NCBI GenBank assembly: GCA_947494145.1
Contig: CANLTZ010000004.1
Location: forward strand, 124,001 to 188,000
Direction of reading: 5' to 3'
Source of the DNA: an uncultured Jannaschia sp.
GTDB lineage: Bacteria; Pseudomonadota; Alphaproteobacteria; Rhodobacterales; Rhodobacteraceae
Length of the DNA stretch: 64,000 bases
The position numbers and the translations under genes are program-made. The notes beneath the pieces were generated by a model. That model worked only from the letters and a program-made list of their open reading frames with translations, was not told the DNA's origin and made no database searches. Position 1 is the first letter of the stretch, and the number at the start of each line of letters is the position of its first letter. Shown piece by piece: positions 4,147-30,205 of this stretch.

Positions 4147-4152
4147 TTGAAA

Positions 4153-4914: not shown

Positions 4915-4924
4915 GGGAACGATC

Positions 4925-6030: not shown

Positions 6031-6091
6031 GCCCTTCCGCGTCGCCTCCATGGCGGCGACGCGGCCAACCCGGCTTGAGGGAGCCGGGTCA

Positions 6092-6411: not shown

Positions 6412-6425
6412 TTGATCCACGTCAA
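6412..6425. promoter_or_regulatory. FNR box upstream of ccoG
   Basis: TTGATCCACGTCAA matches TTGAT-N4-ATCAA at 9 of 10 conserved positions. It lies 63 bp upstream of the chosen ccoG start and supports a start at 6489 rather than 6303. Confidence 0.78.
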
Positions 6426-6488
6426 GGAATCGCGCCGCCCCCCATGCGAGGCAGAGCGGACGGGGTCCCCTCCCCCGTGGAGAACGCC

Positions 6489-10454: not shown

Positions 10455-10596
10455 ACGTTCTCGTCTTCTTGATCCCGGTTTCGCTTGCGCTGGGCGCGCT
10501 TGGGCTTGTCGCCTGTATCTGGACCTTGCGCGCCAAGCAGTACGAAGACCTGGAAGGGGCCGCTGCGCGCATCCTGTTGGAAGACGGCGAGCCCGA

Positions 10597-13800
<3,204 letters not shown>

Positions 13801-13851: not shown

Positions 13852-16800
13852 TCAAAGGTCGACCTCGATCACACCGCCCGGTTCAACCGCGCGGCTTTGA
13901 CACAAGATCATCGCGTCCTGCCGTTGCGCCTTCGACAGCACGAAATCCCGATGATCCACTTGCCCTGATAAGACCCGGCATCGGCAAACACCGCACAGGC
14001 CATCGGCGCATTTGACGTCGATCGGGATGCCCGCTTCTGTCAGGACATCAGTTGCATGTCGGTTCGCGGGTATCATCAGGTCGCGACCCGACGTCGCAAG
14101 CCGCAGGATGAAGGCGTGGTTTTCGCGATCTGGCAAGTCCGGGACGCTGAAATACTCCAGGTGCCGCGCGTCTTCGGGAAAGCCTGCCGCCTCGGCGGCT
14201 TGCATCACCGCATCCATGTAGGCTGCCGCCCCGCAGGCATAGACGTGATCCCCGGCCTTATTTCTCGCCAAGATATCTGTCAAATCCGCCCGGGAGCCTT
14301 CATCCGACACGTGCAAAGTTACCCGATCCGCCCATGGCACATGGGCCAGATCCTCCAGAAAGCCCATAGTGTGTTGCGACCGACCGGAATAATGCAAGCG
14401 GAAGTCGCGGCCCCCGGCATGCAGCTCATGCCCCATGGCGATCAGCGGCGTAATCCCGATGCCGCCGCCCATCAGGAAGGTTCGCTTGGCGCCCGGGTCC
14501 AACGGGAAGTTGTTCACCGGCGGGGCTGCGAAGACGCGCCGCCCGGGCTCAAATATGCGGTGCAGCAGCGCTGAGCCACCGCGCCCCGCGTCTTCCCGCA
14601 AGACGCCAATCTGATAGCGATGGCGGTCCGCAGGGTCGCCGGACATCGAATATTGCCTTAGGAATTCCGGCGCCACGACGATGTCGAGATGCGCGCCCGC
14701 GCGCCATTCCGGCAAGGCGCCGCCGTCCTCAGCCATCAATTCATATTTCGTGATGCCCTCGGCCATGGGCTCCACCCGGCTGATGCGCAGGGCCAGCACG
14801 GGACTGTCGCCTGGATCGGCGGGGCGATGCACCGCGCTTTCGTCGCCGTGGGCCAGTCGCGTGCGGTACTCCTCGGCCGAAATCATCGCGTCATAAGCCG
14901 CAATCCCGGCCTCCCGATCCATTGGGAACGGATAGGGCCAGGGATGGGGTGCCAAAGGCGCCGGGTAGACGGCCAATGTCTGCGCATCGGCGTCCAGCTT
15001 GAGGCCCGGCTGCAAGGACCGCGCATTGACCGGGTGGCGTGTTGGGCGGTAGCCGCCATCTTCCTCCAATTCCAAATCCCACCACCATTTCTTGATGGGG
15101 TTCAGCCCGCCATTCCCCACCGCATCGTCCAGCTTAGCCAGCGCGGGCGCCAGTTGTGGGACGTTCATCGCGGCCCAGCGAAACGGGCGTTCCTTGAACA
15201 CGCCTTCCAGGTTCCAGGGGCAGGTCTTCATGCAGCGCCCGCACATGGCCCCGCCATCGGTCGACATCCGATAGGTCGCGCATTTCTGGCTGTCGGATTT
15301 CCAGATCTCGTAGCCGTTGAACATCAGCTTCGGCCCCGCGGTGATCGCGCCCGAGGGGCATTCGCGGGCGCATTTGTTGCACGCCTCGCAAAACCGTTGC
15401 AGCCCGAAATCAATCGGCTTGTCATGGGCCATGGGCAGGTCCGTGGTCACAACCCCTGATTTCAGGCGCGGCCCCAGAAACGGGTTCAGGATGACTTCAC
15501 CGATGCGGCTGACCTCCCCCAAGCCAGACAATAGCAGCAGCGGCGGTTGCAGCACTTCGCTGTCGATGAGGGTGTGGGCCTTGGCGGTGTAGCCCAGATT
15601 GCGGATCTGCTTGGCGATGACCCCGCCGATCAGGGAAAACCGCAGATAGGCCCGCATGGATTGCGCCACGCTGATCCAGTCATCGCCCGACGCGCCTTCC
15701 ATCGTTTCATAGCCTTGATCGACGATCATGCTGATGGCCTGGTCGTGGGGTGGGTCGATGGGGTCGCCGCGCGCGTCGTGGGAATACCAGGCCCAATCGG
15801 GGCAGCGGCTGATACCCACGGCGTCGATGCCCAGGAAATAGCTGGTGGCCTTGATCAGATCGGCGGCGTCTTCGGGGCTAAGCGGTGTCTTCGTCTGTGC
15901 CGAGGGGCCGTCTTGCAGAAGCACGAACGCGGCCAGGGCCCGCCGCTGCGCCATGGAAGGCGCGGTCTTGCGGACGTAATGCCCGCCTTTGGACCTGTCC
16001 TGAAGCGGGCGCCCCATATCGCCGAATTGCGCGCGGGCAAACATATCCGTCCGCTTCGGCACTCGGGCCACCCGCGGCTCATCGATATAGGTGGTGGGCT
16101 CGTCCACGCGTTTGAGCGTCTCGAACGGGTGGGCACCGTCCTTGAAGCGCCGCTTGGCGAAGGGGACCGCGTTCAAGGCACCCTTTGCGTGGCCCAAGCC
16201 CAGCTTCCAACCGGGCCCATGAGCCTTGGCAGGCTGCGTCGGGGCAAGCGGCGCATCGACGGCCAACTCCAACCGGGTGGTCACGGCGGCTAGACCGAAG
16301 CGTCGCCCGATATAGGGGTGGGTCAGCGCGCCGTCTTTGACAGTGGCAAGCCCCGAGGCCACGGCCAGCACGTTCAGGTTCACGTCCGACGCGGTGGCGG
16401 TGTGTCCGCAGGCATCGAAGCCTAGAAGGCGCAGGTAATTGGCCAAGACCGCCGCCGTTTCCGATGCCAGCAGGGCCGCGCGATGGGCCTGTGCGTCCAC
16501 GATCCAGTCTGTGCCGGGCTCATCCAACTTAGGGTCACGCGGGTTCTCATAAAGCAGCACCAGCGCATATTCGTGACCTTCGATGCCGCCCCTTTCGGCG
16601 GACAGCGCGTCGCGCAGATCGGCCATGACGCCATCGATCCCGGAGGCAAGGGTCTTCACCTGTCGCGATTTCAAATCGTCCAGCAAGGCTGCGATATCGG
16701 GGTTCGTCCGGGACGTGCTCAGATGCGCTTCGGTGGGCAGGCGACATACCCCCACCGCAGCTGCGTCGCAGAAATAGGCAAACGCCTTCAGGTGGTTCGC

Positions 16801-17046
16801 CCGTTCCTGTGGATCGCGCGGGATGTCCGCCACCGCCTTGTTCACCGGCCCATCCCGGATCGCGTCGAGCATGGCCTGATGTTCACCCATGGCATTCACG
16901 ATGGAGGCGGGTGCCTCAGCACGGCGAAAGGTGAGGGGCCCCATCGGTGGCACGGCGGACAGGTCGGGCATCGTCCCGCTTGCCAACCGCTCCGAGGGGT
17001 AGGGCCCCAGGTGAACGGGGCGGTTCTTATCCGAGAAGAGGCGCAT
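13852..17046 (-). CDS. Self-sufficient reductive dehalogenase (RdhA-reductase-ferredoxin fusion, BhbA-like)
   Basis: This 1064-residue protein combines a cobalamin-dependent reductive dehalogenase with its own electron supply. Residues 1 to about 330 look like a degenerate copy of the cobalamin domain and 370-545 like the working copy. Two [4Fe-4S] sites follow: CEACNKCARECP (about 548-559) and CATYRMSTDGGAMCGRCMKTCP (about 587-608). From about 755 there is a phthalate-dioxygenase-reductase-like part with RQYSMSGDP (flavin), GGGIGITPL (nucleotide) and CADGLCGVC with a distal Cys (plant-type [2Fe-2S], about 1010-1045). There is no Tat signal and no rdhB partner, so it is probably cytoplasmic and catabolic, as in Comamonas BhbA and Nitratireductor NpRdhA. 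The halogenated substrate is unknown. An epoxyqueuosine reductase (QueG) is excluded by length and fusion. Confidence 0.88.
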   Translation of the reverse strand: MRLFSDKNRPVHLGPYPSERLASGTMPDLSAVPPMGPLTFRRAEAPASIVNAMGEHQAMLDAIRDGPVNKAVADIPRDPQERANHLKAFAYFCDAAAVGVCRLPTEAHLSTSRTNPDIAALLDDLKSRQVKTLASGIDGVMADLRDALSAERGGIEGHEYALVLLYENPRDPKLDEPGTDWIVDAQAHRAALLASETAAVLANYLRLLGFDACGHTATASDVNLNVLAVASGLATVKDGALTHPYIGRRFGLAAVTTRLELAVDAPLAPTQPAKAHGPGWKLGLGHAKGALNAVPFAKRRFKDGAHPFETLKRVDEPTTYIDEPRVARVPKRTDMFARAQFGDMGRPLQDRSKGGHYVRKTAPSMAQRRALAAFVLLQDGPSAQTKTPLSPEDAADLIKATSYFLGIDAVGISRCPDWAWYSHDARGDPIDPPHDQAISMIVDQGYETMEGASGDDWISVAQSMRAYLRFSLIGGVIAKQIRNLGYTAKAHTLIDSEVLQPPLLLLSGLGEVSRIGEVILNPFLGPRLKSGVVTTDLPMAHDKPIDFGLQRFCEACNKCARECPSGAITAGPKLMFNGYEIWKSDSQKCATYRMSTDGGAMCGRCMKTCPWNLEGVFKERPFRWAAMNVPQLAPALAKLDDAVGNGGLNPIKKWWWDLELEEDGGYRPTRHPVNARSLQPGLKLDADAQTLAVYPAPLAPHPWPYPFPMDREAGIAAYDAMISAEEYRTRLAHGDESAVHRPADPGDSPVLALRISRVEPMAEGITKYELMAEDGGALPEWRAGAHLDIVVAPEFLRQYSMSGDPADRHRYQIGVLREDAGRGGSALLHRIFEPGRRVFAAPPVNNFPLDPGAKRTFLMGGGIGITPLIAMGHELHAGGRDFRLHYSGRSQHTMGFLEDLAHVPWADRVTLHVSDEGSRADLTDILARNKAGDHVYACGAAAYMDAVMQAAEAAGFPEDARHLEYFSVPDLPDRENHAFILRLATSGRDLMIPANRHATDVLTEAGIPIDVKCADGLCGVCRCRVLSGQVDHRDFVLSKAQRQDAMILCQSRAVEPGGVIEVDL

Positions 17047-17096: not shown

Positions 17097-17960
17097 CTAC
17101 ACGGGCGCCCGCCGTGCCCGTTCGCGGTAGGCGCGGGGCGTGGTGCCGTATTGGTCGCGAAACAGGCGGTAGAAGTGGCCTACATTGCCGATCCCCACCG
17201 CTTCGGCCACGTCGGCGACGGGCAATGTCCCCTCGCGGATCAAGCGGGCGGCATGTTCCATGCGAACGCTGTTGATCCAGGCAGAGGGCGTCGTGTCCAG
17301 ATGGCGCCGCATGGCCCGGCACAGATGTTCATGGCTGCGGCCCGCGACGCGGGCCAGTCCAGCGGCGCCTTCGCGAAACACATCTGGCGTCTGCGCCGTG
17401 CGGCAGGCGCGGGCCAGCCAATCCGGCAGGTTCAGATCGAAGATCGCGCCTTCTGTCGTCAGATCGGTCAGCAGGTTCGTGAAGAAGGCCTCTAGCCGCA
17501 GGGCCGTGGCTGGTCCGTCGCGCAATAGGCTGCCCGCCTGCACCACGCGGTCGCGCACGGCCGCGCGCAGCGTGATGCCATCGGGATAGACCCCATTGGA
17601 CCAGAAGAACCGCCCGGCCAGCGTGTCCCCGTGGCGGGCACCCAGGGCCGCAATCAAGTCTGAGCGGGCCATGATGTTGAGAATATGCGCATGGTGCCCC
17701 TTGGGCGCATAGACCGCATGGGCATCAAGGGGGCGCAGGAACACGGCGGCCCCAGGGGCAAGTATGTCAGACCGTCCCCCGACATCGTGGCGCAGCGTGC
17801 CGTCAAGCAGCACCATCAGTTCGTGAAAGTCATGGTCGTGGCGATACCGGGGGCGCTGGCTGCCCACCCTCTTGATCTCAGCCCGGAAGGAATCGCCCGG
17901 GGCGGCATAGCTGTCGAAAAGGAAGCGTCGCGTCTCCATTTCTGGCAGTTTAGCGCGCAA
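17097..17960 (-). CDS. AraC-family transcription regulator next to the reductive dehalogenase
   Basis: This 287-residue protein has an N-terminal cupin sensor (RHDHDFHELMVLLDG near residue 40) and two C-terminal HTH motifs, the second in VADVAEAVGIGNVGHFYRLF, as usual for AraC/XylS regulators. It lies 50 bp upstream of rdhA on the same strand and is divergent from the oxygenase/transporter cluster at 18071. It is therefore the obvious candidate regulator of one or both. The effector is unknown. Confidence 0.88.
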   Translation of the reverse strand: MRAKLPEMETRRFLFDSYAAPGDSFRAEIKRVGSQRPRYRHDHDFHELMVLLDGTLRHDVGGRSDILAPGAAVFLRPLDAHAVYAPKGHHAHILNIMARSDLIAALGARHGDTLAGRFFWSNGVYPDGITLRAAVRDRVVQAGSLLRDGPATALRLEAFFTNLLTDLTTEGAIFDLNLPDWLARACRTAQTPDVFREGAAGLARVAGRSHEHLCRAMRRHLDTTPSAWINSVRMEHAARLIREGTLPVADVAEAVGIGNVGHFYRLFRDQYGTTPRAYRERARRAPV

Positions 17961-18046
17961 AGGCGGTTGAATACCAATGCAAATGTCAAAATAGCGTAGC
18001 TTTCGGTCAAATCTGTCACTACCGCGCAGTGTGAAATCAGGACTAC

Positions 18047-18063
18047 CCTCCCCTCAAGGGAGG
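18047..18063 (+). promoter_or_regulatory. Hairpin covering the ribosome-binding site of the first PhyH gene
   Basis: CCTCCC (18047-18052) pairs exactly with GGGAGG (18058-18063), the Shine-Dalgarno sequence of the gene starting at 18071, across a 5-nt loop. The fold would hide the ribosome site. Whether it matters in vivo is unknown. Confidence 0.45.
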
Positions 18064-18070
18064 TTTCGCC

Positions 18071-18892
18071 ATGCTGGATCAGCAGCTGGACTTGCGTTTT
18101 GCGCCGGTTCGAAATGCGCATCCGCGATCTTTGTCCGCCGACCAGATCGATGCCTATAACCATGCGGGCTTCATCAGCCCCCTACTTGCGCTGAGCAAAG
18201 ACGAAGTGCGAGCGCTGCGTGGCTGTATCGACACCTGGTTGGAGGCGAAGGGCGAAGACGGGGCTTATGGCATCAATTGCTATCAAGCGCGTCTGTCCGC
18301 GCTTTGGGATATCGCCCGCCATCCGGTCATTCTCGACTACGTTGAGGATATCATTGGCCCCGATATCCTGTGCTGGGCAAGTGCCGTGCTGTCCAAACCG
18401 GCTGGGGAAACGCGATCCGTCCCCTGGCACCAGGATGCGGGGTTCTGGTCGCTGAACCCTGCGCGCACCGTCACTGTCTGGCTTGCCATCGACGATGCGG
18501 ACGAGGGTAACGCCGCCATGCAATTCATCCCCGGCACACATGACCAGGGCGCCATCGAAATGGCGCCCGTGGCGGGCGAAGTCTTCGCCCACGGCATTGC
18601 TGGGGCCGACGAGCTGGGCACGCCCTTCGTGAACGCCTTACGCGCCGGGGAATGTTCTCTCCATGCGGATATGCTGGTCCATGGATCGGGCCCCAACCTG
18701 TCCGACCGCCGCCGCTGTGGTCTGACATTGCGCTATTGCCCGCCGAGCGTTCGCATCGTGGATGAAGGTTGGCGCCAGGGTGTCGAGGCCGTGCTGTGCC
18801 GCGGCGAGGCCGGGGATTGGACCACCCATCCCCGCCCCGACAATAACGATATCACCGGCCTCGACAGCCCCCGCGCCGTGGGGAACAACTGA
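18071..18892 (+). CDS. Phytanoyl-CoA dioxygenase (PhyH) family Fe(II)/2-oxoglutarate oxygenase
   Basis: This 273-residue protein belongs to the PhyH branch of 2-oxoglutarate oxygenases. The iron facial triad is visible: H120 and D122 in WHQDAGFW and H204 in LVHGSGPN. The intact HxD argues for a hydroxylase rather than an HxG/HxA halogenase. The substrate is unknown. It opens the plus-strand cluster, is divergent from the AraC gene, and overlaps the next gene by TGATG. A second member of the family lies at 21414. Confidence 0.88.
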   Translation: MLDQQLDLRFAPVRNAHPRSLSADQIDAYNHAGFISPLLALSKDEVRALRGCIDTWLEAKGEDGAYGINCYQARLSALWDIARHPVILDYVEDIIGPDILCWASAVLSKPAGETRSVPWHQDAGFWSLNPARTVTVWLAIDDADEGNAAMQFIPGTHDQGAIEMAPVAGEVFAHGIAGADELGTPFVNALRAGECSLHADMLVHGSGPNLSDRRRCGLTLRYCPPSVRIVDEGWRQGVEAVLCRGEAGDWTTHPRPDNNDITGLDSPRAVGNN

Positions 18893-19569
18893 TGCGGGTG
18901 ACGTGGTTCGGCCAAGCTGCCTGCAAGCTGCAGGGTGACACGCTCAACGTGATCACCGACCCCTACACCCCCGATGTGCTGGGCTACAAAGCCATTGAGG
19001 AAACCGCCGATGTGGTGCTGACCTCGTCCGACGATGACGACGCCCATTGCCGGTCTGACCTGATCCCGGGCTCGCCTGCCATTGCCAACGCGCTCGACAT
19101 TGCGGGCGAGGGCCAGGGCGAAGGGATGGTCGGGCCGCTGAAGGTGCGCGCCATCGCCGCCGAGGAATGGGAACACCACCCAAGGGGCGTTGCCAATCAG
19201 AACGCCATGTACCGGTTCGAATTGGACGGGATGCAGATCGCCCATATGGGCGACGTGGGCAACGCGCTTGACGAAGACCAGATCGCCTTCTTTGAGGGTG
19301 TTGATATCCTGTTCGCGCTGACCGGCGGGCCGCCCACCATCGCGCTGCCCGACCTGATGCGCATGATCCACCGGACGCAGCCCAAGCTGATCATCCCGAT
19401 CCACTTCCGTACCCTGGCCTACAGGCCCGCGAACATTCTCTGGATCGAGGACTTTCTGCGCCACTTCAACGACGAAGACGTGGAATTCGCCTTCGGACCC
19501 CATACAAAGATAACCAAGCAGGACCTGCGCCCGCGCACTCGCGTCCGGGTGTTGGACTACCTGCGATAA
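18892..19569 (+). CDS. Metallo-beta-lactamase-fold protein with altered metal motif
   Basis: This 225-residue protein resembles the UlaG/UPF0173-type MBL fold: MRVTWFGQAACKL at the N-terminus, a central MQIAHMGDVG strand and a late LIIPIHF motif. The usual HxHxDH after ADVVLT is replaced by TSSDDDDAH (residues 44-52), so two first-site histidines are missing while one His and several Asp remain. It may bind metal differently or not hydrolyse. It starts on the stop codon of the PhyH gene and precedes a transporter binding protein by 22 bp, so it belongs to the same operon. Confidence 0.75.
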   Translation: MRVTWFGQAACKLQGDTLNVITDPYTPDVLGYKAIEETADVVLTSSDDDDAHCRSDLIPGSPAIANALDIAGEGQGEGMVGPLKVRAIAAEEWEHHPRGVANQNAMYRFELDGMQIAHMGDVGNALDEDQIAFFEGVDILFALTGGPPTIALPDLMRMIHRTQPKLIIPIHFRTLAYRPANILWIEDFLRHFNDEDVEFAFGPHTKITKQDLRPRTRVRVLDYLR

Positions 19570-19591
19570 AGACCACCAAGGGAGGACAAAT

Positions 19592-21322
19592 ATGATCCTG
19601 AAGCACCTCATCACCGGCACCGCCGCGCTGGCCCTCATGGCCGGAACGGCCTTCGCGCAGGATGTTGCGCGCGAAGACACGGTGATCTTCGATCTGGATC
19701 GGACGATTACCGATCCGACGAATTTCAACTGGTTGACCGACGGCACGGGCGTGCGCCGGATGCATGGCGGCCACCAGGTCATGTGGGAGCCGATGTTCAT
19801 CCTGAACTACGGCACCGGCGATCTGGACCCGTGGCTGGCCACGGGTTTTGAGGCCAATGACGACAGCACCGAATTCACCGTCACGCTGCGCGACGGCGTG
19901 GAATGGTCCGATGGTGAGGCATTCAACGCCGATGATGTGATCTTCTCGGTCGAAATGGCCTTGGCCAACGAAGAGATCACGGCCCGCGAAGCGGCCACCC
20001 TGCGCAGTCAGGTTGGCAGCATCGAAAAGGTCGACGATCTGACTGTGAAGATGACCCTGAACGCGCCTAACCCGCGCTTCATGGTCGAAAATTTCGGTAT
20101 TCGCATCTTCGGCAGCTTCCTGATCATGCCCGAACATGTCTGGGCCGGTGAAGACCCTGCCACCTTCACCTTCCCCGAACCCATCGGCACCGGGCCTTAC
20201 ACCTTCACCTCTGCCGCTACGAACCGCGCGATCTGGGATCGCAATGACGATTGGTGGGGCGCCAAGACCGGCTTCCAGGACCTGCCTGCGCCTCAGCGCG
20301 TGATCTTCCTGGAAACTGGGGGTGAAGAAAGCCGCGCGCAGCTTCTGGCCAACAACGATCTCGACGCGTCGCAGAATATCTCGGTCGGGACGTTCGAAGC
20401 CGTCCGCGCGCAGAACCCCAGCGTTATCGCCTGGTATGACGATTACCCCTACACTGCTGCCGATCCCTGCGCGCGTCAGTTGGAAATCAACACCACTGTC
20501 GCACCGTGGGACGATGCCCGGATGCGCCGTGCGGTGGCGCATATCATCGACCGCACGCAGATCGTGAACGTCGCCGCAGAAGGTGCCACCACGGCGTCGC
20601 GCACGATGTTCGCGGAATATGGCTCGATGGCGCCTTTCATCGACGCCGCCATCGAAGCGGGCCATGAATTGCCTGCGACGGCAGATGTGGCCGCCGGTCA
20701 GGCGCTGATCGAAGAAGCGGGCTGGACGCGCAACGGCGACTATTACGAAAAGGACGGCGAAACGCTGTCGGTTGCCATCCACGTCAACTCCGCCTCGACG
20801 GAATACACGCGTACCATCGACGTCATCGTCGAACAGCTTCAGCGCGCCGGGATCGACGCGCGCGCCGTGCCTGTCGAAAACGGGGTGTTCTGGGGTGAAG
20901 TGCTGCCCTTCGGTTCCTACGAGATGTCCTATAGCTGGCTCAGCTGTGGGTCGGTGAACGAACCCTGGGCCTCCATGGGGCGCTACACCGTTCGCGACGT
21001 GGTCCCCGTGGGCGAACGCAGCCCTGGCTTCAACAACACGTCCCGTTGGACGGGCGAAGCGGCCGAGGCCTATTCCGCGATCATCTATGACATGGAAGGC
21101 CGCGCCCTGGGCGACCCGGAAATCCCGTCGATGGTGGCGGAAGCTTACGGCTACCTTGCCGAAGGGATGCCGTTCATCCCGCTCGTGCAATCGGCCAAGT
21201 TGATCCCCTTCAACACGACCCATTGGACGGGCTGGCCGACCAACGAAAACTACTACAACCACCCGTTCTTCTGGTGGAATCACACGCACCAGATCATCCA
21301 CAATCTGGAAGCAGCGCAGTAG
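19592..21322 (+). CDS. ABC transporter substrate-binding protein, family 5 (Dpp/Opp type)
   Basis: This 576-residue periplasmic protein has a signal peptide (cleavage likely after TAFA, residues 18-23) and the SBP_bac_5 pattern (EFTVTLRDGVEWSDGEAF near residue 90). Family members bind peptides, but also oligosaccharides, opines and glycosides. The partner permeases and ATPase are at 23356-27091, separated from it by a PhyH and a P450 gene. A GC-rich hairpin follows its stop codon. The ligand is unknown; the alpha-mannosidase downstream hints at a sugar-containing compound. Confidence 0.9.
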   Translation: MILKHLITGTAALALMAGTAFAQDVAREDTVIFDLDRTITDPTNFNWLTDGTGVRRMHGGHQVMWEPMFILNYGTGDLDPWLATGFEANDDSTEFTVTLRDGVEWSDGEAFNADDVIFSVEMALANEEITAREAATLRSQVGSIEKVDDLTVKMTLNAPNPRFMVENFGIRIFGSFLIMPEHVWAGEDPATFTFPEPIGTGPYTFTSAATNRAIWDRNDDWWGAKTGFQDLPAPQRVIFLETGGEESRAQLLANNDLDASQNISVGTFEAVRAQNPSVIAWYDDYPYTAADPCARQLEINTTVAPWDDARMRRAVAHIIDRTQIVNVAAEGATTASRTMFAEYGSMAPFIDAAIEAGHELPATADVAAGQALIEEAGWTRNGDYYEKDGETLSVAIHVNSASTEYTRTIDVIVEQLQRAGIDARAVPVENGVFWGEVLPFGSYEMSYSWLSCGSVNEPWASMGRYTVRDVVPVGERSPGFNNTSRWTGEAAEAYSAIIYDMEGRALGDPEIPSMVAEAYGYLAEGMPFIPLVQSAKLIPFNTTHWTGWPTNENYYNHPFFWWNHTHQIIHNLEAAQ

Positions 21323-21329
21323 CATAGCC

Positions 21330-21353
21330 GCGGGGCCCCGCCTGGGGCCCCGC
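21330..21353 (+). terminator. GC-rich hairpin after the binding-protein gene
   Basis: GCGGGGCCCC (21330-21339) pairs with GGGGCCCCGC (21344-21353) over a 4-nt loop. There is no T run, so it more likely stabilises the upstream mRNA or attenuates transcription than ends it. Confidence 0.6.
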
Positions 21354-21413
21354 ACCACCCATGAGTGGCGGGGCACGGCGATGAAACCGACCTGCCGCGA
21401 AAGGTCAGGGATC

Positions 21414-22184
21414 ATGTCCGAGATCGCGAAGGCTTTTGCCCAGCACGGCTACTACCACGCCCGCGGCGTCTTCGATGCGGATGCGCTTCGCCGATTGGAA
21501 TCGGACTTCGACCATGTCGTCGCGCAATTGTCGGAAAGCGGCGGCGATATCGACGCCACGTGGGATGGGGATGGCATGGCCCGCCTGGCCCGTGCCGGAG
21601 ACCGCATCCTGCATACGCACAACATCCAGAAATATTCCCGCATCTGGATGGATGCCTTCCTGAGCGATGCCTTCCTTGCCCCGGTACGCAGCATCCTTGG
21701 CGACGATATCGTTCTGCATCACTCCAAGCTGTTCCAGAAGCCTGCCGAGGCGGGGGCGCCGTTCCCCATGCATCAGGACTGGCCCTATTTCCCGACCGAG
21801 CGTGATAGCATGATCGCGGGCATCATCCATGTCAGCGACGCCACCGATCAGATGGGGTGCCTGCGGGTCTATCCCGGCTCTCACAAGTTGGGGCGCGTCG
21901 CGGGCGCAAACGGGCGCCAGCAAAACGATATCCTCGATCAATATCCCATCGAAGACGCACAGATCATCGAGGCGAAGGCCGGCGATGTGGTCTTCTTTCA
22001 CTACTTAACCCTGCATGGCTCCATGCCGAACCGGTCCGATGCCACGCGCAAGACTGTGCTCGTACAAATGTATGATGGCCGCGACCGGGTGGAGCTTGGC
22101 AACAAGCACCCCGATGAACGACTTGTCCTGTCGGGCTGGAACCACCGCATCGACAGAAAGCTTGCGGGCGCGGGTGCGCAATGA
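21414..22184 (+). CDS. Second phytanoyl-CoA dioxygenase (PhyH) family oxygenase
   Basis: This 256-residue Fe(II)/2-oxoglutarate oxygenase carries H120 and D122 in MHQDWPYF and the third ligand H201 in LTLHGSMPNRS; an Arg for 2-oxoglutarate (ATRKTV) follows. It differs clearly in sequence from the PhyH at 18071, so the pair is not a recent duplication. I chose ATG 21414 because of a nearby AGG-rich ribosome site; ATG 21381 is an in-frame alternative. It overlaps the P450 start by four bases, so the two oxygenases are translationally coupled. The substrate is unknown. Confidence 0.88.
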   Translation: MSEIAKAFAQHGYYHARGVFDADALRRLESDFDHVVAQLSESGGDIDATWDGDGMARLARAGDRILHTHNIQKYSRIWMDAFLSDAFLAPVRSILGDDIVLHHSKLFQKPAEAGAPFPMHQDWPYFPTERDSMIAGIIHVSDATDQMGCLRVYPGSHKLGRVAGANGRQQNDILDQYPIEDAQIIEAKAGDVVFFHYLTLHGSMPNRSDATRKTVLVQMYDGRDRVELGNKHPDERLVLSGWNHRIDRKLAGAGAQ

Positions 22185-23359
22185 TGACCCAGGGCGCGCC
22201 ACAACTCGAAAGCTGGGGCCGCCCTGACGATCCGTTTTCTGTCGCCCGCGCGGATACCGGCGCCATGGTCGGGTCGTTCCATGGTGAAGACCTTCTGATG
22301 CTGTTGCGCTGGAAGGACGTGCGCGCCGCCGCCCGGGACTACGACCAATTCGATAGCTCTGTCCTTGGTCATGTGCCGATCCCGCCCGAATACGCGATCC
22401 GGTGTTTCAGGCAGCTTCCCATCGAAACCAACCCGCCCGAACATGGCCGCTGGAAAGAGATCGTGCTGCCCTTCTTCCGCCGCCCCACCGACCCGGTGGC
22501 CAAGCTGGAGTTCGAGGGCGTGGTGCGTGACCACTTGAATGCCGCCCTTGGCGGCGACCCCGTTGAGTTGGTCCGCGACTTCGCTCTGCCCATCCAATCC
22601 GCTTCGCTTGCCATCCTGCTGGACACGGACCGGGCCGTCGCCGCCGAATGGCAGGTTTGGGGTTTGCACGCGTTTCGAACGGACGGCAAAACCGACCCCA
22701 GCAAGGCCGCCCGGTTTCTCGACTTCATCGACCGGATGCTTGACCGCGGCAAAGCGGATCGGACGATCGGCCTGTTTGCCGCGTTGCATCACGCACGCTT
22801 TGACGACCGCCCCCTGACCCGTGATGAGATGCGCGGCGTTTGCCATCTGGCCATGTCCGGTGGGCGCGACACAATCATCAACGCCATCGTCGGCACGCTG
22901 GCGCATCTGGCCCGGGTGCCCGAAGATCTGGACAATCTGCGGGGCGATCCAGCGCTTATCCCCGTCGCGACCGAGGAAATCTTCCGCGTCCTTTCCCCGT
23001 TGCCGATGATCGGTCGCGTCTGCCCCCACGGGCATGACCGCGGCGCGCAAAGCGTGGCGCCCGGTGACCGTGCCGCGCTGTGTTGGGCGGCGGCGAACCG
23101 TGACCCGGCCATCTTCGACGCGCCCGAAGACCTGCGTATCGACCGCATACCAAACCCCCATGTGGCGTTCGGTGCGGGTGCCCATACCTGTCTTGGTGCG
23201 CCCATGGCTCGCCTGCTTATCCGCACGTTGCTGGCGGAACTGGCGAGGCGAGTGGATCGCATCGACATTGTCGAGGCTACGCCCCGCCCCAATCCGTTCG
23301 GCACGCCATACCTTTTCGACGCGCTTCTGGCCCGTCTCATCGCGAGGGAGAGACCATGA
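22181..23359 (+). CDS. Cytochrome P450
   Basis: This 392-residue soluble class I-type bacterial P450 has the haem-binding loop FGAGAHTCLGAPMAR (Cys near residue 337), the ExxR motif in EEIFR and the I-helix oxygen-activation motif GGRDT. No ferredoxin or ferredoxin reductase gene is adjacent, although the [2Fe-2S]/flavin module of the dehalogenase lies a few kilobases away. It overlaps both the PhyH gene upstream and the permease gene downstream by ATGA, so it is co-translated with an importer. The substrate is unknown; it may be the transported compound. Confidence 0.93.
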   Translation: MMTQGAPQLESWGRPDDPFSVARADTGAMVGSFHGEDLLMLLRWKDVRAAARDYDQFDSSVLGHVPIPPEYAIRCFRQLPIETNPPEHGRWKEIVLPFFRRPTDPVAKLEFEGVVRDHLNAALGGDPVELVRDFALPIQSASLAILLDTDRAVAAEWQVWGLHAFRTDGKTDPSKAARFLDFIDRMLDRGKADRTIGLFAALHHARFDDRPLTRDEMRGVCHLAMSGGRDTIINAIVGTLAHLARVPEDLDNLRGDPALIPVATEEIFRVLSPLPMIGRVCPHGHDRGAQSVAPGDRAALCWAAANRDPAIFDAPEDLRIDRIPNPHVAFGAGAHTCLGAPMARLLIRTLLAELARRVDRIDIVEATPRPNPFGTPYLFDALLARLIARERP

Positions 23360-24363
23360 CCTCCATTCCATTGGCCTATCTGAAGAACCGGCTCATCACG
23401 CTGGTCCTGACGATCCTGATCGCGGCGACGCTGATCTGGATCATCCCGCGCCTGTCCCCCGTGGATCCTGCGGAAATCGCACTGGGCCGCATGGCCGCGG
23501 GCGCGGGCTCGGTCGCGAATTCCGAAGAAATCCTGGCCCAGCTTCGCGCCTCCATGGGCATCGATGCGCCGCTAATCGTCCAATATGCCCGCTATATCGG
23601 GAACGTTCTGGTCTTCGATTTCGGCATCTCGACCGCGTCATTCCCCACCCCCGTTTCGGCCCTGATCGCCCAGGCTCTGCCCTGGACGCTGGGTCTCATG
23701 ATCCTGTCGCTGATCATCACCTTCATTATCGGCAACGCGCTGGGCGCTTTCATGGCCTGGGACCGGACGCCCAAACTGGCCCGCGTCGCCATCCCGGCGG
23801 CCATGGTCTTCACCTCGATCCCGCCGATCTTGTCGGGCCTGTTGCTGATGTGGATCTTCGCCGCCCAGCTTCGCTGGTTTCCGCTCACCGGCTCCTACGG
23901 CTTGAACGTGGAGCCGGGGTGGGATTGGTCCTTCGTCGCTTCTGTCATCAGCCACGGCACGCTGCCCGCTTTGTCCATCGTCATCGTCACCTTCGGCTTC
24001 TGGGCCTTGGGCATGCGGGGCCTGATGATTTCCGTGCAAGGCGAAGACTACGTGAAGCTGGCCGAGGCAAAGGGCCTGAAACCCCGATACATCCTTTACA
24101 AATACATGATCCGCAATGCCATCTTGCCCCAGATCACAGCCTTCGCGCTGAAGGTGGGGCTGCTGATCGCGGGCCAGGTGCTGGTGGAACGCATTTTCGC
24201 CTATAACGGCATGGGTAAGCTGCTTTACGATGCGATCCTGAACCAAGATTTCCCCGTCATCCAGGGCGTCAGTTACGTCATCATCCTGATGACCGCGCTG
24301 TCCGTCTTCATTGTCGATCTGCTTTATCCGCTGATCGACCCCCGCATCCGCAGGGAGGCCTGA
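23356..24363 (+). CDS. ABC transporter permease, DppB/OppB type
   Basis: This 335-residue membrane protein has about six helices and the DppB-type coupling loop (EDYVKLAEAKGLKPRYILYKY, EAA motif). It ends in DLLYPLIDPRIR as usual for this family. It forms the inner-membrane channel with the next permease. Its start overlaps the P450 stop by ATGA. Confidence 0.92.
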   Translation: MTSIPLAYLKNRLITLVLTILIAATLIWIIPRLSPVDPAEIALGRMAAGAGSVANSEEILAQLRASMGIDAPLIVQYARYIGNVLVFDFGISTASFPTPVSALIAQALPWTLGLMILSLIITFIIGNALGAFMAWDRTPKLARVAIPAAMVFTSIPPILSGLLLMWIFAAQLRWFPLTGSYGLNVEPGWDWSFVASVISHGTLPALSIVIVTFGFWALGMRGLMISVQGEDYVKLAEAKGLKPRYILYKYMIRNAILPQITAFALKVGLLIAGQVLVERIFAYNGMGKLLYDAILNQDFPVIQGVSYVIILMTALSVFIVDLLYPLIDPRIRREA

Positions 24364-24366
24364 GCA

Positions 24367-25296
24367 ATGGCAGACACCCCCGCAACCCCGCTGACCCGCG
24401 CCGAAAAGGCCACCGCCAAACGTGCCCGCCGCTTCGACAACCCCTGGCTCAACCCCAAGCTTATCTGGGGCGCCAGCCTGCTGCTGGGTATCGTCGCGCT
24501 TGGCATTATCGGCCGGCTTTTATGGAACCTTGAGCTTGTCTTCACCGGCTCCTCCCTGCTGAAAATCCCGCCCATCGGGTTTGAAAACCTGCGCGGCCAG
24601 GCTGGTACGCTGGCCAACCCCGTGGGCACCGATGGGGCAGGCCGGGACATGCTGGCGCTGCTGATCATCGGCGCGCCGAACACCCTGTTCGTGGGTCTCA
24701 TGGCGTCAATGATCGGCATGACAATCGGCATCGTCCTGGGCTTCACCGCAGGTTTCGTGGGCGGGCGCACCGATGACACGATCCGCGTGCTGTCGGATGT
24801 GATGATCACCATTCCCCCGCTCCTGATCTTGGTGGTGGTGCAATCGGTCTTCGGGGACGTGTCGCTGACGCTGATGTCGCTGCTGATTGCGGGGTTCGTC
24901 TGGCAATCGCCCACCCGCCTGATCCGGGCGCAAGTCCTGTCGATGCGCGAAGCGGGCTATGTGCAGATGGCGCGTCTGTCCGGTGCGTCGACCTCCCACA
25001 TCATGTTCAAGGAGATGCTGCCGAACCTCATCCCCTATCTGTTTGGGTCCTTCATCGCGTCGGTCACCACCTCCATCGTCACGGCTGTGGGCCTCGAAGT
25101 GCTGGGCCTTGGGCCGCAACGCGTGCCGACCCTTGGTCGCACGATCTACGAGGCCATCAATGCGGGCGCTCTGATCCAGAACCTCTGGTGGTGGTGGGGC
25201 CTGCCCACGCTGTTGCTGGCGGTGATGTTCATCGGGCTGCTGCTGGTCAATCTGGGCCTCGACGAAGTGTCGAACCCGCGGCTTAGAAAGCTTTGA
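24367..25296 (+). CDS. ABC transporter permease, DppC/OppC type
   Basis: This 309-residue membrane protein has an N-terminal cytoplasmic stretch, about six helices, the OppC_N region and an EAA loop (EAGYVQMARLSGASTSHIMF). The periplasmic GTDGAGRDMLALLI segment is a DppC hallmark. It follows the DppB partner by three bases and precedes the ATPase by 73 bp. Confidence 0.92.
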   Translation: MADTPATPLTRAEKATAKRARRFDNPWLNPKLIWGASLLLGIVALGIIGRLLWNLELVFTGSSLLKIPPIGFENLRGQAGTLANPVGTDGAGRDMLALLIIGAPNTLFVGLMASMIGMTIGIVLGFTAGFVGGRTDDTIRVLSDVMITIPPLLILVVVQSVFGDVSLTLMSLLIAGFVWQSPTRLIRAQVLSMREAGYVQMARLSGASTSHIMFKEMLPNLIPYLFGSFIASVTTSIVTAVGLEVLGLGPQRVPTLGRTIYEAINAGALIQNLWWWWGLPTLLLAVMFIGLLLVNLGLDEVSNPRLRKL

Positions 25297-25369
25297 CCAT
25301 GACCCTACCCAGCCGCCCCGCCCCGCGAAGAGAGCCGACAGGCTCGATGAGCAGACCCGGAGATCGCCC

Positions 25370-27091
25370 ATGACCGTGCTCGACATCCAGAACTTGTCCA
25401 TCGACTTCCCCACGGCGGGTGGCGTGGTCCATGCCGTCACCGACCTGTCGCTCCAGATCGAGAAGGGTCGCCGCATCGGCTTCATCGGGGAATCGGGCTC
25501 CGGCAAGACCACCACCGCCCTGGCCGTCATGCAGATGCTCGCCGCACCCGGTCGCGTGGCGGGCGGCCAGATCATCCTGGGCGGCACCGACATGCTGGCC
25601 CTGTCGGAGGAGGAGATGCGCCTGTCTCGCCTTTCCAAGGTCAGCTACATCCCCCAGGGCGCCATGAACTCCCTCAACCCGATCATGCGGATCGAGGATC
25701 AGCTCTGGGACGGCATCATCGCCCATGAACCCACGACCACGAAGGCCGACCTCAAGCGCCGCTCGGACGAGGCGCTGGCCTCGGTGGGTCTGCTGCCCCA
25801 CACGGCGCGGCTTTATCCACATGAGTTATCGGGCGGCATGAAACAACGGGTCTGCATCGCCATGGGCGTGACGCTGTCCCCCGACCTGATCATCGCCGAT
25901 GAACCCACATCGGCGCTGGACGTGGTCACCCAACGGCATGTGATGCAGACCCTGAAGGACGTGCAGGCCAAGATCGGCGCCGCGCTTATCCTGATCGGCC
26001 ATGATATGGGCCTTATGGCGCAATCGGTGGATGAACTGGCCGTTCTGAAAGACGGTGAACTGGTCGAACACGGGGATGTCCGCCAAATTCTGGAGGCCCC
26101 AAAACACCCCTATACTAAGGACCTGATTTCATCGGTCCCGCTGGTGGGCGGTGAAAGCTTCCTGGACCCGGCCCCGGCGGAGCCACCCAAGGGACGCGGC
26201 AAACCAGGCGTGCCGCTTTTGGCCTTCGAAGATGTGTCCAAGGTCTATGGCAACGTCACGGCGCTGCATCCCATGTCCTTCGCGCTGGACGGTGAAGTGC
26301 CCAAGATCGTCTCGATCGTCGGGCAATCGGGGTCTGGCAAATCCACCATGGGTAGCCTGATGCTGGGCTTCAACGCGCCGTCCACGGGCCGCGTCCTGTT
26401 CGAAGGCCAGGACGTGGCGACCATGGACCAGGCCGCCAGCCTGGATTTCCGCAAGAACGTGCAGGCCGTCTTCCAGGACCCCTATGCCTGCTTCAACCCG
26501 TTCTACCGGGTCGACCATGCCTTGAAATTCCCCTTCAAGCGCTTCGGCTACGCCACGTCTGAGACGCAGACGCAGCAAGCGATGGAGGATGCCTGCGTGG
26601 CCGTGGGCCTTGACCCCGCCCTTATCCTGCGGCGCTATCCCCACCAGCTTTCGGGTGGCCAGCGCCAGCGCCTGATCGTGGCCCGCGCGCTGATGCTGCA
26701 ACCCAAGCTGCTGATCGCGGATGAGCCGGTGTCGATGGTCGATGCGTCCCTGCGGTCCACCATCCTGAAAAACATCCACGACTTGAAGGACCGCCACGGC
26801 ATCTCGATCCTATACATCACGCATGATCTGGCCACGGCCTACCATGTCAGCGACTACGTCATCGTCCTTTACCAAGGTCACGTGGCCGAGGCGGGACCGC
26901 CCAAGCAGGTCATCGGCGAGCCGCAGCATGAATATACGCGCCTTCTGATCGACTCGATCCCCTGGCCCGATATCGACCGCGGCTGGGGCACGCCAACGAC
27001 CGAGGAAGAAGATGCCGCCCGACTAGCGCGCTTGGCCGAAGACCGCCAGACCGTGATGCGCGGCGACATACCGGGCTTCACGCTCAGCTAG
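25370..27091 (+). CDS. Fused double ATP-binding protein of the Dpp/Opp importer
   Basis: This 573-residue protein joins the two nucleotide-binding domains that are separate DppD and DppF in many bacteria. Domain 1 has Walker A GESGSGKTT (near residue 41), signature LSGGMKQR and Walker B LIIADEP. Domain 2 has GQSGSGKST (near 318), LSGGQRQR and LLIADEP. An oligopeptide-transporter C-terminal region lies after each domain. It powers the permeases encoded just upstream. Confidence 0.92.
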   Translation: MTVLDIQNLSIDFPTAGGVVHAVTDLSLQIEKGRRIGFIGESGSGKTTTALAVMQMLAAPGRVAGGQIILGGTDMLALSEEEMRLSRLSKVSYIPQGAMNSLNPIMRIEDQLWDGIIAHEPTTTKADLKRRSDEALASVGLLPHTARLYPHELSGGMKQRVCIAMGVTLSPDLIIADEPTSALDVVTQRHVMQTLKDVQAKIGAALILIGHDMGLMAQSVDELAVLKDGELVEHGDVRQILEAPKHPYTKDLISSVPLVGGESFLDPAPAEPPKGRGKPGVPLLAFEDVSKVYGNVTALHPMSFALDGEVPKIVSIVGQSGSGKSTMGSLMLGFNAPSTGRVLFEGQDVATMDQAASLDFRKNVQAVFQDPYACFNPFYRVDHALKFPFKRFGYATSETQTQQAMEDACVAVGLDPALILRRYPHQLSGGQRQRLIVARALMLQPKLLIADEPVSMVDASLRSTILKNIHDLKDRHGISILYITHDLATAYHVSDYVIVLYQGHVAEAGPPKQVIGEPQHEYTRLLIDSIPWPDIDRGWGTPTTEEEDAARLARLAEDRQTVMRGDIPGFTLS

Positions 27092-27117
27092 CCGCTCCGA
27101 CATCCTTCCAAGGATCA

Positions 27118-27141
27118 GGCCACTCCCACCAGTGAGTGGCC
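27118..27141 (+). other. Hairpin between the ATPase and mannosidase genes
   Basis: GGCCACTC (27118-27125) pairs with GAGTGGCC (27134-27141) over an 8-nt loop, without a T run. It sits in the 66-bp gap before the GH38 gene and may modulate read-through. Confidence 0.5.
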
Positions 27142-27157
27142 TCACCGAAAGCACCCG

Positions 27158-30100
27158 ATGGACCATACTCGCCGCTTCACCGCCCGCAAGATCGCCAAGC
27201 GGATCGACCTGATCCAGCGCATGGTCCATCGGCAATCCCGCCCCATTGCGCCCTTTCGCTGGACCACGCTGCCCAACGCCGATGTGGACCCGCCCTTACA
27301 GGCCAACCCCGCCGATTGGCCGCAGATCGACTGGCACGATTACTGGGCCGGGCAGAACACGCATTACCTGATGACGACCAATTTCACGGTGCCGCGCGGT
27401 TGGGCCGATGGGCCCGTGGCGCTGCACCTGCCCATGGGCGTGGCGGGCGACATCTTCACCCATCCCGAGGCGCTGCTCTATATCGACGGGCAATCCTACG
27501 CTTCAGCCGACCGCTACCACCACACCATCTATCTGCCGCCCAGCGTCATCGACGGGCGCGAACACCGCGTGGACTTGCACGGCTGGACGGGCCTGACAGG
27601 CTGGCCGCCCGACCCAGCCAATACCGACCGGCTGAAGATGGGCGAATGCAAGCTGGTCGAGATGGATTTGCCCACGCGCGATTTCATCTCACTCGCCGAA
27701 GTGGCGCTGGAACTGGCGCTGACGATGGATGAAGGCCGCCCTGAGCGGCATGCCATCCTGACCGCGCTCGATGCCGCGTTCCTGGCGCTCGACACCCGTG
27801 ACCCCATGGGCGAGGCGTTCTGGCGATCGGTCTCCACGGCCCATGACGCGCTAGAGGTCGGGCTGGGTTCGGCCGGGGGGCCCATCGATGTGACGCTGCA
27901 TGCCATCGGCCATGCCCATATGGACATCGCCTATCTGTGGCCCGTGGCCCAGATCCGGCGCAAGAACGCGCGGACCTACTCCAACGTGCTGCGCATGATG
28001 GATCAATATCCCAACTACCGGTTCAGCCATTCGCAACCCCAGCTTTATGCCTATACCGAAAGCGACTATCCCGAGATTTTCGAGGGTATCCGCACCCGGG
28101 TGTCTGAAGGCCGGTGGGAAGTCATCGGCGGCATGTGGGTGGAGCCCGACACCAACCTGCCCGGCGGTGAGGCGCTGGTGCGCCAGCTTTTGCTGGGTCG
28201 GTCCTGGTTTCGCGACCGCTTCGGCGATGTGGAAACCCCTGTCCTTTGGCTGCCCGATACGTTCGGCCTGACCTGGTGTCTGCCCCAGCTTGTGGATCAG
28301 GCGGGGCTGCGCTGGATGGTGGTGAACAAGGCGTCCTGGAACCAATATAACCAGCTTCCCGCCTCCACGCTCTGGTGGCAGGGCATCGACGGCACCCGTA
28401 TCCTGACGCAATTCCTGACCACGCCGCGCGAAGTGCAGCACTTGCCCTTCCCCACCAACTATAAATCCGACCTGACCGCCGATGAGGTCGTCGGCACATG
28501 GGAAGCCTCGACGGCCAAGGAACATGTTCGCGACCTGCCCATCGCCTATGGCTACGGCGATGGCGGCGGTGGCCCAACGGGTGAGTTGATCCGCCGCGCC
28601 AAGGTCTGGCAAGGGATGCCGGGCGCGCCGGAGATCAAGTTTTCCACCATCCGCGACTGCATGGAGGCGATTGAAGATCAGGCCGCCTTGGTCCCCACCT
28701 GGTCAGATGAACTTTACCTGGAAGGGCATCGCGGCACGCTGACCAGCCAGGGCTGGATCAAGCGCGCCAATCGGCGGGCGGAAATCGCGCTCCATGACGC
28801 TGAATTTCTATTGGCGGCCACGGGCACGCCTGCCCCACATGCGTTGCGCGAAGCTTGGGAAAAGCTCTGCCTCAACCAGTTCCACGACATTCTACCGGGC
28901 ACATCCGTGCCGTCCGTCTTCGCGGATTCCTGTGACGATTATGTTCGGATCGCACGCATCACCGATGACGCCATTCTGGCCTGCGAAGACCCCACAGGCA
29001 CGCAGCTTGCCGTGAACACCGCCCCCCATGGCGGAAAGCGCCTGGTGGAGTTGCCCCGGATGATGGACGGGGCCCAAGAGACCGAGACGGGGGCCATCGC
29101 GCTGATGCATTTGGCGCCCTACTCGCTGACACCGTTGGCGCCTTCGCCGCCCGAAGCGCCGGTGGACATTCGCGACGACGGCACGGGGGTCATCCTGCAG
29201 AACGCCCATATCCGGGTCGAAATCGACGCTGCGGGGCGCATGACCCGCATCCACGATCGCACCAACGACCGGGAGGTCCTGGCCGAGGGCCGCATCGGCA
29301 ACCAGCTTCAGGCTTTCGAGGATCGACCGCTCAGTTGGGATGCCTGGGATATCGACAGCTTCTTCGAGGATCGCGGCGAATTGGTCACCGGCCTGTCCGC
29401 GATGGAAGTGACAGAAACAGGGCCGCTGCGCGTATCGGTCCGGCTTGACTGGCATTTCCGCGCCTCGACCATTCGCCAACATATCCGCCTGGCTGCCGAT
29501 AGCCGCCGCCTCGATTTCGAGACAGAGGTCGATTGGCACGAAAGCCATATCCTGCTGAAAGCCGCGTTTCCCGTGGCCGTCTTTGCGCCCTCGGCCACCT
29601 ACGAAATCCAATGGGGCGCCATTTCCCGTCGTACCCATCGCAACACGTCGTGGGATTACGCCAAGTTCGAAGTTCCCGCCCAACGCTGGGCCGATCTGTC
29701 CGAAGGGGATTACGGCGTGGCCCTACTGAACGATTGCAAATACGGCTACGACATCAAGGGCGATGTCATGCGCCTGACGCTCATCAAATCCGCCACCAGC
29801 CCCGACCCCAATGCCGACCAGGGCCTGCACCGCTTCACCTATGCGCTTCTGCCCCACAAGGGTGACTGGCGGGCCGAAGTCCAGGCACAGGCGAACCACC
29901 TCAACATGCCAGTGCGTCTGATGCGCGGGCAGGGCGACGGGACGGCCTTTGTCGAAAGCTCGAACCATGCGGTCGTCGTGGAAACGGTGAAGCCCGCTGA
30001 AGATGGCGATGGCGTGATTGTCCGCCTGTACGAAAGTCAACGGACGCGGGGCCCCGTGACGCTGACCTTTGCTGCGCCACCTTCGCGCGTCACGCGCTCC

Positions 30101-30205
30101 CATCTGCTGGAATTCGATGAAGGGGAGGCGTTGGCGGTCGACGGGCGCGACGTGATTTTGGATATCACGCCTTTCCAGATCGTCACGTTGCGCGCCCGGT
30201 TCTGA
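27158..30205 (+). CDS. Alpha-mannosidase, glycoside hydrolase family 38
   Basis: This 1015-residue enzyme has full GH38 length. The zinc-binding start of the catalytic domain, HAHMDIAYLWP, lies near residue 251. The segment with the nucleophilic Asp, WLPDTFGL, is near 363. The middle three-helix domain (NQFHDILPGTS near 570) and the C-terminal beta domains are present. No signal peptide is seen, so it acts on imported material in the cytoplasm, removing alpha-mannosyl residues. It follows the importer genes in the same direction, which suggests that the transported compound carries alpha-mannose or a related sugar. Confidence 0.93.
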   Translation: MDHTRRFTARKIAKRIDLIQRMVHRQSRPIAPFRWTTLPNADVDPPLQANPADWPQIDWHDYWAGQNTHYLMTTNFTVPRGWADGPVALHLPMGVAGDIFTHPEALLYIDGQSYASADRYHHTIYLPPSVIDGREHRVDLHGWTGLTGWPPDPANTDRLKMGECKLVEMDLPTRDFISLAEVALELALTMDEGRPERHAILTALDAAFLALDTRDPMGEAFWRSVSTAHDALEVGLGSAGGPIDVTLHAIGHAHMDIAYLWPVAQIRRKNARTYSNVLRMMDQYPNYRFSHSQPQLYAYTESDYPEIFEGIRTRVSEGRWEVIGGMWVEPDTNLPGGEALVRQLLLGRSWFRDRFGDVETPVLWLPDTFGLTWCLPQLVDQAGLRWMVVNKASWNQYNQLPASTLWWQGIDGTRILTQFLTTPREVQHLPFPTNYKSDLTADEVVGTWEASTAKEHVRDLPIAYGYGDGGGGPTGELIRRAKVWQGMPGAPEIKFSTIRDCMEAIEDQAALVPTWSDELYLEGHRGTLTSQGWIKRANRRAEIALHDAEFLLAATGTPAPHALREAWEKLCLNQFHDILPGTSVPSVFADSCDDYVRIARITDDAILACEDPTGTQLAVNTAPHGGKRLVELPRMMDGAQETETGAIALMHLAPYSLTPLAPSPPEAPVDIRDDGTGVILQNAHIRVEIDAAGRMTRIHDRTNDREVLAEGRIGNQLQAFEDRPLSWDAWDIDSFFEDRGELVTGLSAMEVTETGPLRVSVRLDWHFRASTIRQHIRLAADSRRLDFETEVDWHESHILLKAAFPVAVFAPSATYEIQWGAISRRTHRNTSWDYAKFEVPAQRWADLSEGDYGVALLNDCKYGYDIKGDVMRLTLIKSATSPDPNADQGLHRFTYALLPHKGDWRAEVQAQANHLNMPVRLMRGQGDGTAFVESSNHAVVVETVKPAEDGDGVIVRLYESQRTRGPVTLTFAAPPSRVTRSHLLEFDEGEALAVDGRDVILDITPFQIVTLRARF

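Follow-up and report, generated by a model that had tools for sequence, protein, structure and literature searches.

A self-sufficient reductive dehalogenase was described in 2023, when Fisher et al. reported the purification of JtRdhA, an RdhA-PDOR fusion from the marine Rhodobacteraceae member Jhaorihella thermophila that depends on reduced nicotinamide adenine dinucleotide phosphate (NADPH) (Fisher et al., 2023, PMC10463259). As described there, its single chain carries cobalamin, flavin mononucleotide (FMN), two [4Fe-4S] clusters and one [2Fe-2S] cluster, and NADPH oxidation is coupled one to one with debromination, according to the abstract under aerobic conditions too. The paper's table of reactions under N2 has the enzyme debrominating 3,5-dibromo-4-hydroxybenzoate and 3-bromo-4-hydroxyphenylacetate with NADPH; bromo- and iodophenols are converted, the chloro compounds tested are not, and in Escherichia coli W the enzyme supports growth on a brominated acid (PMC10463259). 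Putative homologues of bhbA, the gene for the corresponding enzyme BhbA of the Comamonas sp. 7D-2 plasmid pBHB (WP_015585978), are described as widespread in the Roseobacter clade (PMC13101508). This article concerns an rdhA gene found in a 64,000-nucleotide stretch of DNA, hereafter the window, from an uncultured Jannaschia sp. (contig CANLTZ010000004.1, positions 124,001 to 188,000). Its product is an ordinary addition to this characterised enzyme family, the biochemistry of which is already published for close relatives, and it brings one more genome to a marine reservoir of such debrominases that is large and was recognised earlier.

The open reading frame (ORF) is intact, starts with ATG and encodes 1064 residues exactly at 13852-17046 of the window (minus strand). 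An earlier note on this DNA had claimed that the one frame holds an RdhA core with two [4Fe-4S] clusters, a reductase and a [2Fe-2S] domain, and on this the ORF, the profile matches and the structure matches agree. The NCBIfam model TIGR02486 "reductive dehalogenase" scores 207 bits (cut-off 160.35), and Fer4_16, Fer4_7 and Fer2 all match above their Pfam cut-offs; Pfam Dehalogenase PF13486 gave no match in the protein's Pfam scan at E ≤ 10, and its search of the genome came back as empty as those of its 14 control genomes. The best solved relative of the first ~730 residues is NpRdhA of Nitratireductor pacificus (4ras, E 6.8e-163; 6zxu, 9.2e-163), with 304 of 672 aligned residues identical (45%, RdhA part), while residues ~744-1054 find theirs in phthalate dioxygenase reductase (2pia, E 7e-57) and in P450-fused reductases. 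The architecture had been likened to that of BhbA, and indeed this protein matches over its full length with 51% identity (53.8% over residues 1-730, 48.5% over 740-1064).

Could the protein nevertheless have been mistaken for an RdhA and in fact be QueG (epoxyqueuosine reductase) or a different class III B12 enzyme? The QueG model does give a weak match, but its 24.8 bits fall far short of the cut-off of 200, whereas the reductive dehalogenase model exceeds its own cut-off of 160; NpRdhA is the best structure match, and the fused reductase also argues against QueG. The probability of such a misreading is negligible, and it was rejected on score. The comparison with characterised RdhAs and QueG that had been suggested for this gene thus puts NpRdhA and BhbA close and QueG below its cut-off. 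As for a respiratory role, neither of its two marks was found: a simple pattern found no twin-arginine (Tat) motif in residues 1-60, as the claim of a missing Tat signal would have it, and rdhA is flanked by katG and an araC-type gene, the RdhB anchor being judged from these neighbours without a dedicated rdhB model search. There is no obvious membrane segment either (19-residue hydropathy maximum 1.28), and the genome holds no second RdhA, the other matches at E ≤ 0.001 being two reductase-domain proteins only. The window protein is almost certainly a soluble, cytoplasmic, single-chain B12 reductive dehalogenase of the BhbA/JtRdhA kind.

Six residues of NpRdhA with roles described in PMC7565698 and PMC10463259, namely F291, S422, M423, Y426, K488 and R552, correspond to F336, S463, M464, Y467, K529 and R593 of the window protein. 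Loss of the catalytic Tyr and Lys/Arg, which would have spoken against the dehalogenase according to the earlier note, was looked for, and all are present (Y467, K529, R593). So are all 12 cluster cysteines, in the motifs C553xxCxxCxxxCP, C589...CxxCxxxCP and C1013xxxxCxxC...C1049, and the reductase part carries an R797QYS motif. The N-terminal part aligns with 4ras over residues 1-104 and then from 156 on; by this alignment the protein appears to carry a degenerate N-terminal duplicate of the cobalamin domain, a duplication which is itself described in PMC10463259. The coordinates of these features are collected in Table 1. A promoter and terminator scan gave signal no higher than in shuffles.

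Table 1. The rdhA gene, its parts and the neighbouring cassette, in window coordinates.
Feature	Position	Strand	Basis
rdhA frame, 1064 residues	13852..17046	-	ORF call, profile and structure-sequence matches
N-terminal part (residues ~1-270), aligning with the vestigial duplicate of NpRdhA	16237..17046	-	4ras alignment; boundary approximate
Cobalamin-binding core (residues ~390-545), holding Y467 and K529	15412..15879	-	Boundaries approximate
Y467 codon (NpRdhA Y426, proton donor)	15646..15648	-	NpRdhA alignment
K529 codon (NpRdhA K488)	15460..15462	-	NpRdhA alignment
R593 codon (NpRdhA R552)	15268..15270	-	NpRdhA alignment
Two [4Fe-4S] Cys motifs, C553 to C609	15220..15390	-	Pfam and motif reading
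Phthalate-dioxygenase-reductase-like flavin/nucleotide module (residues ~744-967)	14146..14817	-	Structure-sequence and profile matches
Plant-type [2Fe-2S] ferredoxin domain, Fer2 (residues 993-1053)	13888..14070	-	Pfam
AraC regulator and divergent PhyH/metallo-hydrolase/ABC importer/PhyH/P450/GH38 cassette	17097..30205	.	Possible partner; not assigned to the enzyme itself

The window protein has all the sequence features named for the JtRdhA mechanism, and because the characterised relatives work in this way, the same sequence of events can be proposed here. Hydride from NAD(P)H would be passed to the flavin of the C-terminal module (FMN in JtRdhA), and electrons would then flow from the flavin through the [2Fe-2S] domain and the two [4Fe-4S] clusters to the cobalamin, the site at which the halogen ortho to the phenolic hydroxyl would be split from its carbon. 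The proton would come from Y467/K529, with the phenolate held by S463/K529/R593. The likeliest substrates would be marine bromo- or iodo-4-hydroxybenzoate- or 4-hydroxyphenylacetate-type (tyrosine-type) acids, and the dehalogenated product would enter the 4-hydroxybenzoate (PobA) or homogentisate (HmgA) route of the host. As a whole, a dehalogenase of the BhbA/JtRdhA kind that acts on bromo- or iodo-4-hydroxy-aromatic acids and feeds the PobA or HmgA route is the probable reading. Cofactors, NADPH use, halogen preference and oxygen tolerance are those predicted from characterised relatives, while the substrate class, the least certain step, is predicted from the genes that neighbour the relatives.

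Halogenated 4-hydroxybenzoate-, 4-hydroxyphenylacetate- or tyrosine-type substrates are proposed because pobA and hmgA occur near relatives' rdhA genes and because the window's own genome has both, with a pobA match of 630 bits (cut-off 538.7) and an HgmA_C match of 240 bits (cut-off 21). The named genome collection yielded 209 candidate stretches, 201 of which encode a relative, and neighbours were counted around the best 80 (1.37 Mb of flank); the neighbour clustering was crowded with shadow frames within rdhA, and the clusters were therefore read by hand. At an identity of at least 45%, pobA lies in the flanks of five of the 80 loci and hmgA in those of four, versus 0.34 expected per single-copy gene, and each of eight control genes (hemN, fnrL, ccoN, ccoP, copA, katG, tsf, murA) is found at 0-2 loci, tsf and murA having themselves been picked from rdhA-flanking loci. 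At three loci pobA is the immediate neighbour of rdhA on the same strand (L092, L094 and L089; stretches are given L numbers, genomes G numbers), and NCBIfam cut-offs are passed by three of the pobA and two of the hmgA neighbours. pobA is also found near BhbA (L131, by tblastn) and near the Nitratireductor OM-1 homologue (L135, annotated).

Several points weigh against this assignment. pobA and hmgA were chosen after the neighbour clusters had been inspected, so that their enrichment is partly post hoc, although pobA was to be expected from BhbA. The independent events are fewer than nine, since L089 and L094 share one small tree group and all four hmgA loci belong to a single larger one, and 71 of the 80 loci have neither gene in the stretch covered. 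No aromatic-catabolism gene adjoins rdhA in the window, the pobA and hmgA of this genome being on other contigs. Genes of the CobN/Mg-chelatase family are found in the genome, but CobN matches alone do not prove B12 synthesis, and one of them may be a bacteriochlorophyll chelatase. The pocket departs from that of NpRdhA at five positions (F290 to M335, F310 to Y357, A419 to V460, N452 to L493 and K307 to S352), and for this reason the substrate preference of NpRdhA cannot simply be copied. Moreover, rdhA also associates with the AraC/PhyH/GH38 cassette considered below, which bears no obvious relation to such acids, and the function assigned to the window protein is a prediction.

How such genes are distributed bears on whether the enzyme serves a catabolic pathway at all. 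A homologue over most of the length is present in 12 of 20 same-genus genomes, this one included (in G013 it matched in two pieces), and 151 of the 394 sampled genomes of the family match at E ≤ 1e-100, with 52-74% identity among the matches listed, the window itself aside. Coverage of the query reaches 80% or more in eight plasmid records, of which five have 60-80% identity and three, BhbA among them, 51-57%. The 124 loci that were read gave 113 distinct full-length proteins, BhbA and the OM-1 homologue included, after L134 (no single long frame) and L014 (not full length) had been dropped. In their tree, built by a quick method with no bootstrap, the window protein stands beside that of G006 with a Shimodaira-Hasegawa-like approximate likelihood ratio test (SH-aLRT) value of 99, in a set with Jannaschia helgolandensis and three other Jannaschia; further Jannaschia copies occupy two other places, hence three in all. 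Because Jannaschia copies are so scattered and plasmid copies exist, the pattern points to horizontal spread of rdhA between genomes. In L134 itself (10001-13202, on a Yoonia sp. SS1-5 plasmid), rdhA is unannotated and lies in two frames around residue 365, and looks broken or misread.

This mobility would suit a free-standing accessory, the same enzyme serving to remove or detoxify incoming halophenols with no dedicated pathway and no carbon catabolism. The neighbours vary as well, also within Jannaschia: sixteen stretches were first compared, fifteen of them with rdhA (L155 was taken around a katG), and of the 11 Jannaschia stretches apart from the window, a flagellin-gene site is common to three and a toxin-antitoxin/CBS-domain site to another three, and five differ. 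However, the enrichment of pobA and hmgA beside relatives and the growth on a brominated acid that JtRdhA gives E. coli W (PMC10463259) both speak for catabolism, and detoxification, although a real possibility, appears clearly the less likely role.

All 113 proteins keep the Y/K/R set and the 12 cysteines, and the catalytic F, S, M, Y, K and R are invariant. The commonest residues at NpRdhA positions 290, 310, 419 and 452 are M (98/113), Y (109), V (111) and V (110), where BhbA and OM-1 carry F, S, S and A. As read from these alignments, the marine set thus has a nearly uniform pocket, distinct from that of both BhbA and NpRdhA. Within it the window protein has a peculiarity of its own: L493 (codon 15568-15570), which aligns with NpRdhA N452, is found in it alone (of the 113, 110 have V there and 2 have A) and sits in a LIDS stretch in place of VMDG.

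On its downstream side rdhA converges with katG (11386-13800, plus strand, its TTG start uncertain) at 51 bp, and an OxyR-like LysR gene lies beyond (10597-13800 for the pair). Such a neighbourhood invites the idea that, in some lineages, RdhA belongs to a peroxide or hypohalite response, clearing the halophenols that peroxide and haloperoxidases generate by halogenating tyrosine-like rings. This gene order is repeated in another genus (G119, L141 13239-16438), with outer flanks that differ, and katG and an OxyR-like gene also stand beside rdhA in two Litoreibacter metagenome-assembled genomes (L069, 595-3815, and L106), so that the neighbourhood occurs in two arrangements; in L069 the pair ends ~45 bp before the homologous rdhA start (6 bp before the longest frame). 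Nevertheless, in a search of 147 of the 161 rdhA-bearing genomes (14 were left out), katG was matched in 135 (75/80 and 60/67), and by eye it lies within 1 kb of rdhA in just two of them, the window genome (G000) and G119, the next nearest being G298 at ~24 kb; for this reason the idea stays weak. A handful of sightings carries no significance when the possible neighbours number in the thousands, and although OxyR is the best-scoring model for the LysR proteins encoded in the window, in L069 and in L141, its 221-231 bits fall below the cut-off of 329. A peroxide role is accordingly rated very improbable. Further out, translations of 302-10639 show a hemN-like gene, an Fnr-like regulator, a cytochrome cbb3 oxidase set and a copper-type P-ATPase.

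On the other side an AraC-type regulator (17097-17960, minus strand) precedes rdhA on the same strand with a gap of 50 bp, and a divergent cluster begins at 18071. This cassette comprises a first PhyH protein (PhyH1), a metallo-hydrolase, a family-5 solute-binding protein, permeases and an ATPase forming a dipeptide-type importer of the ATP-binding cassette (ABC) class, and GH38; in the window a second PhyH and a P450 are additionally inserted. Eleven other AraC loci were read, nine of which have PhyH1 and the metallo-hydrolase alongside, and eight of ten further stretches around PhyH1 contain the cassette (truncated in one by the end of the stretch); it is seen in the window and in L169, L171-L174, L176-L178 and L180. 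PhyH1 itself is present in 27 of the 394 family genomes. In G034 (L174 10859-19236) translations place IclR-, enoyl-CoA hydratase-, thiolase- and acyl-CoA dehydrogenase-like genes directly after the GH38 end, and a similar-looking set lies 8 kb beyond the cassette in the window (37831-44179); the cassette may feed beta-oxidation. Also beyond it, at 30336-32897 (minus strand), two proteins look fasciclin-like in translation, one with an RTX-like glycine-rich C-terminal stretch.

Might RdhA then work with the cassette, the substrate being a natural product, halogenated and perhaps glycosylated, which the cassette imports and degrades? The idea arises because rdhA adjoins the cassette in the window and in G364 and is commoner in cassette carriers. 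In G364 the rdhA, 63% identical, lies tail to tail 420 bp from the GH38 end, an arrangement unlike that of the window, with the AraC relative ~11 kb away; in G142 an AraC relative alone, without a cassette, lies 14 kb from rdhA. Genomes with PhyH1 have rdhA in 19 of 27 cases versus 132 of 367 others (Fisher p 0.0007, uncorrected for kinship and lifestyle), or in 18 of 26 with the window excluded (p 0.0013), and no such excess appears in genomes with an AraC relative only (7/29) or with an unrelated solute-binding protein of the window (15/39); for these counts rdhA carriers were matched by eye to the 151 family genomes. Yet kinship and lifestyle are uncontrolled in this statistic, and in 17 of the 19 genomes, read by eye, rdhA and the cassette do not adjoin, lying on different contigs or 63 kb (G249) and 125 kb (G269) apart. 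None of the AraC, PhyH, metallo-hydrolase and GH38 genes was found in 85 other rdhA loci (tblastn E 1e-20, at least half length), and each PhyH protein carries the hydroxylase-type HxD iron motif, so that neither looks like a halogenase. A joint function is therefore doubtful, and equally so the broader proposal of an undescribed AraC-controlled uptake-and-breakdown system for a marine natural product, with RdhA as its halogen-removing arm.

A debrominase of 4-hydroxy-aromatic acids thus remains the preferred reading, and the interpretation in the earlier note is supported by sequence, its novelty having been overrated, as BhbA and JtRdhA were already published; among the titles listed from the open-licence PMC literature, none deals with the Jannaschia gene itself. 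The by-products of the analysis are a family census, a marine pocket unlike that of NpRdhA, hints of testable substrates from pobA and hmgA, and an unexpected association with the cassette.

How does the window protein finally compare with known systems? With phthalate dioxygenase reductase and the P450-fused reductases (2pia, 6kbh, 6laa) it shares the same type of C-terminal reductase-ferredoxin module, although the partner there is an oxygenase and here an RdhA. NpRdhA (4ras, 6zxu, 6zxx) resembles its RdhA part, with the catalytic residues kept, but is described as having no fused reductase (PMC10463259). Ros_A3X954 of Roseobacter sp. MED193, compared by its description, is likewise a catabolic debrominase of the Roseobacter clade without a Tat signal; it differs in its reported high oxygen sensitivity and in its ~8 Fe per protein, that is, no sign of a [2Fe-2S] module, and is not termed self-sufficient in the passages of PMC13101508 considered here. 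BhbA has the same full-length architecture and the same catalytic and cluster residues, while differing in its neighbours, ligAB (annotated) and a pobA-type stretch (tblastn), and in its pocket, with F, S, S and A in place of the M, Y, V and V that prevail in the marine set. JtRdhA (WP_104007082), finally, has been assayed, whereas the window protein is known from its sequence and the two are compared by published description; that related RdhAs exist in marine Rhodobacteraceae, as stated in the earlier note, agrees with its publication (PMC10463259). Like it, the window protein has no Tat signal, a duplicated cobalamin domain, two [4Fe-4S] clusters, a PDOR-like reductase with a [2Fe-2S] domain and the equivalents of Y426, K488 and R552, all in one chain.

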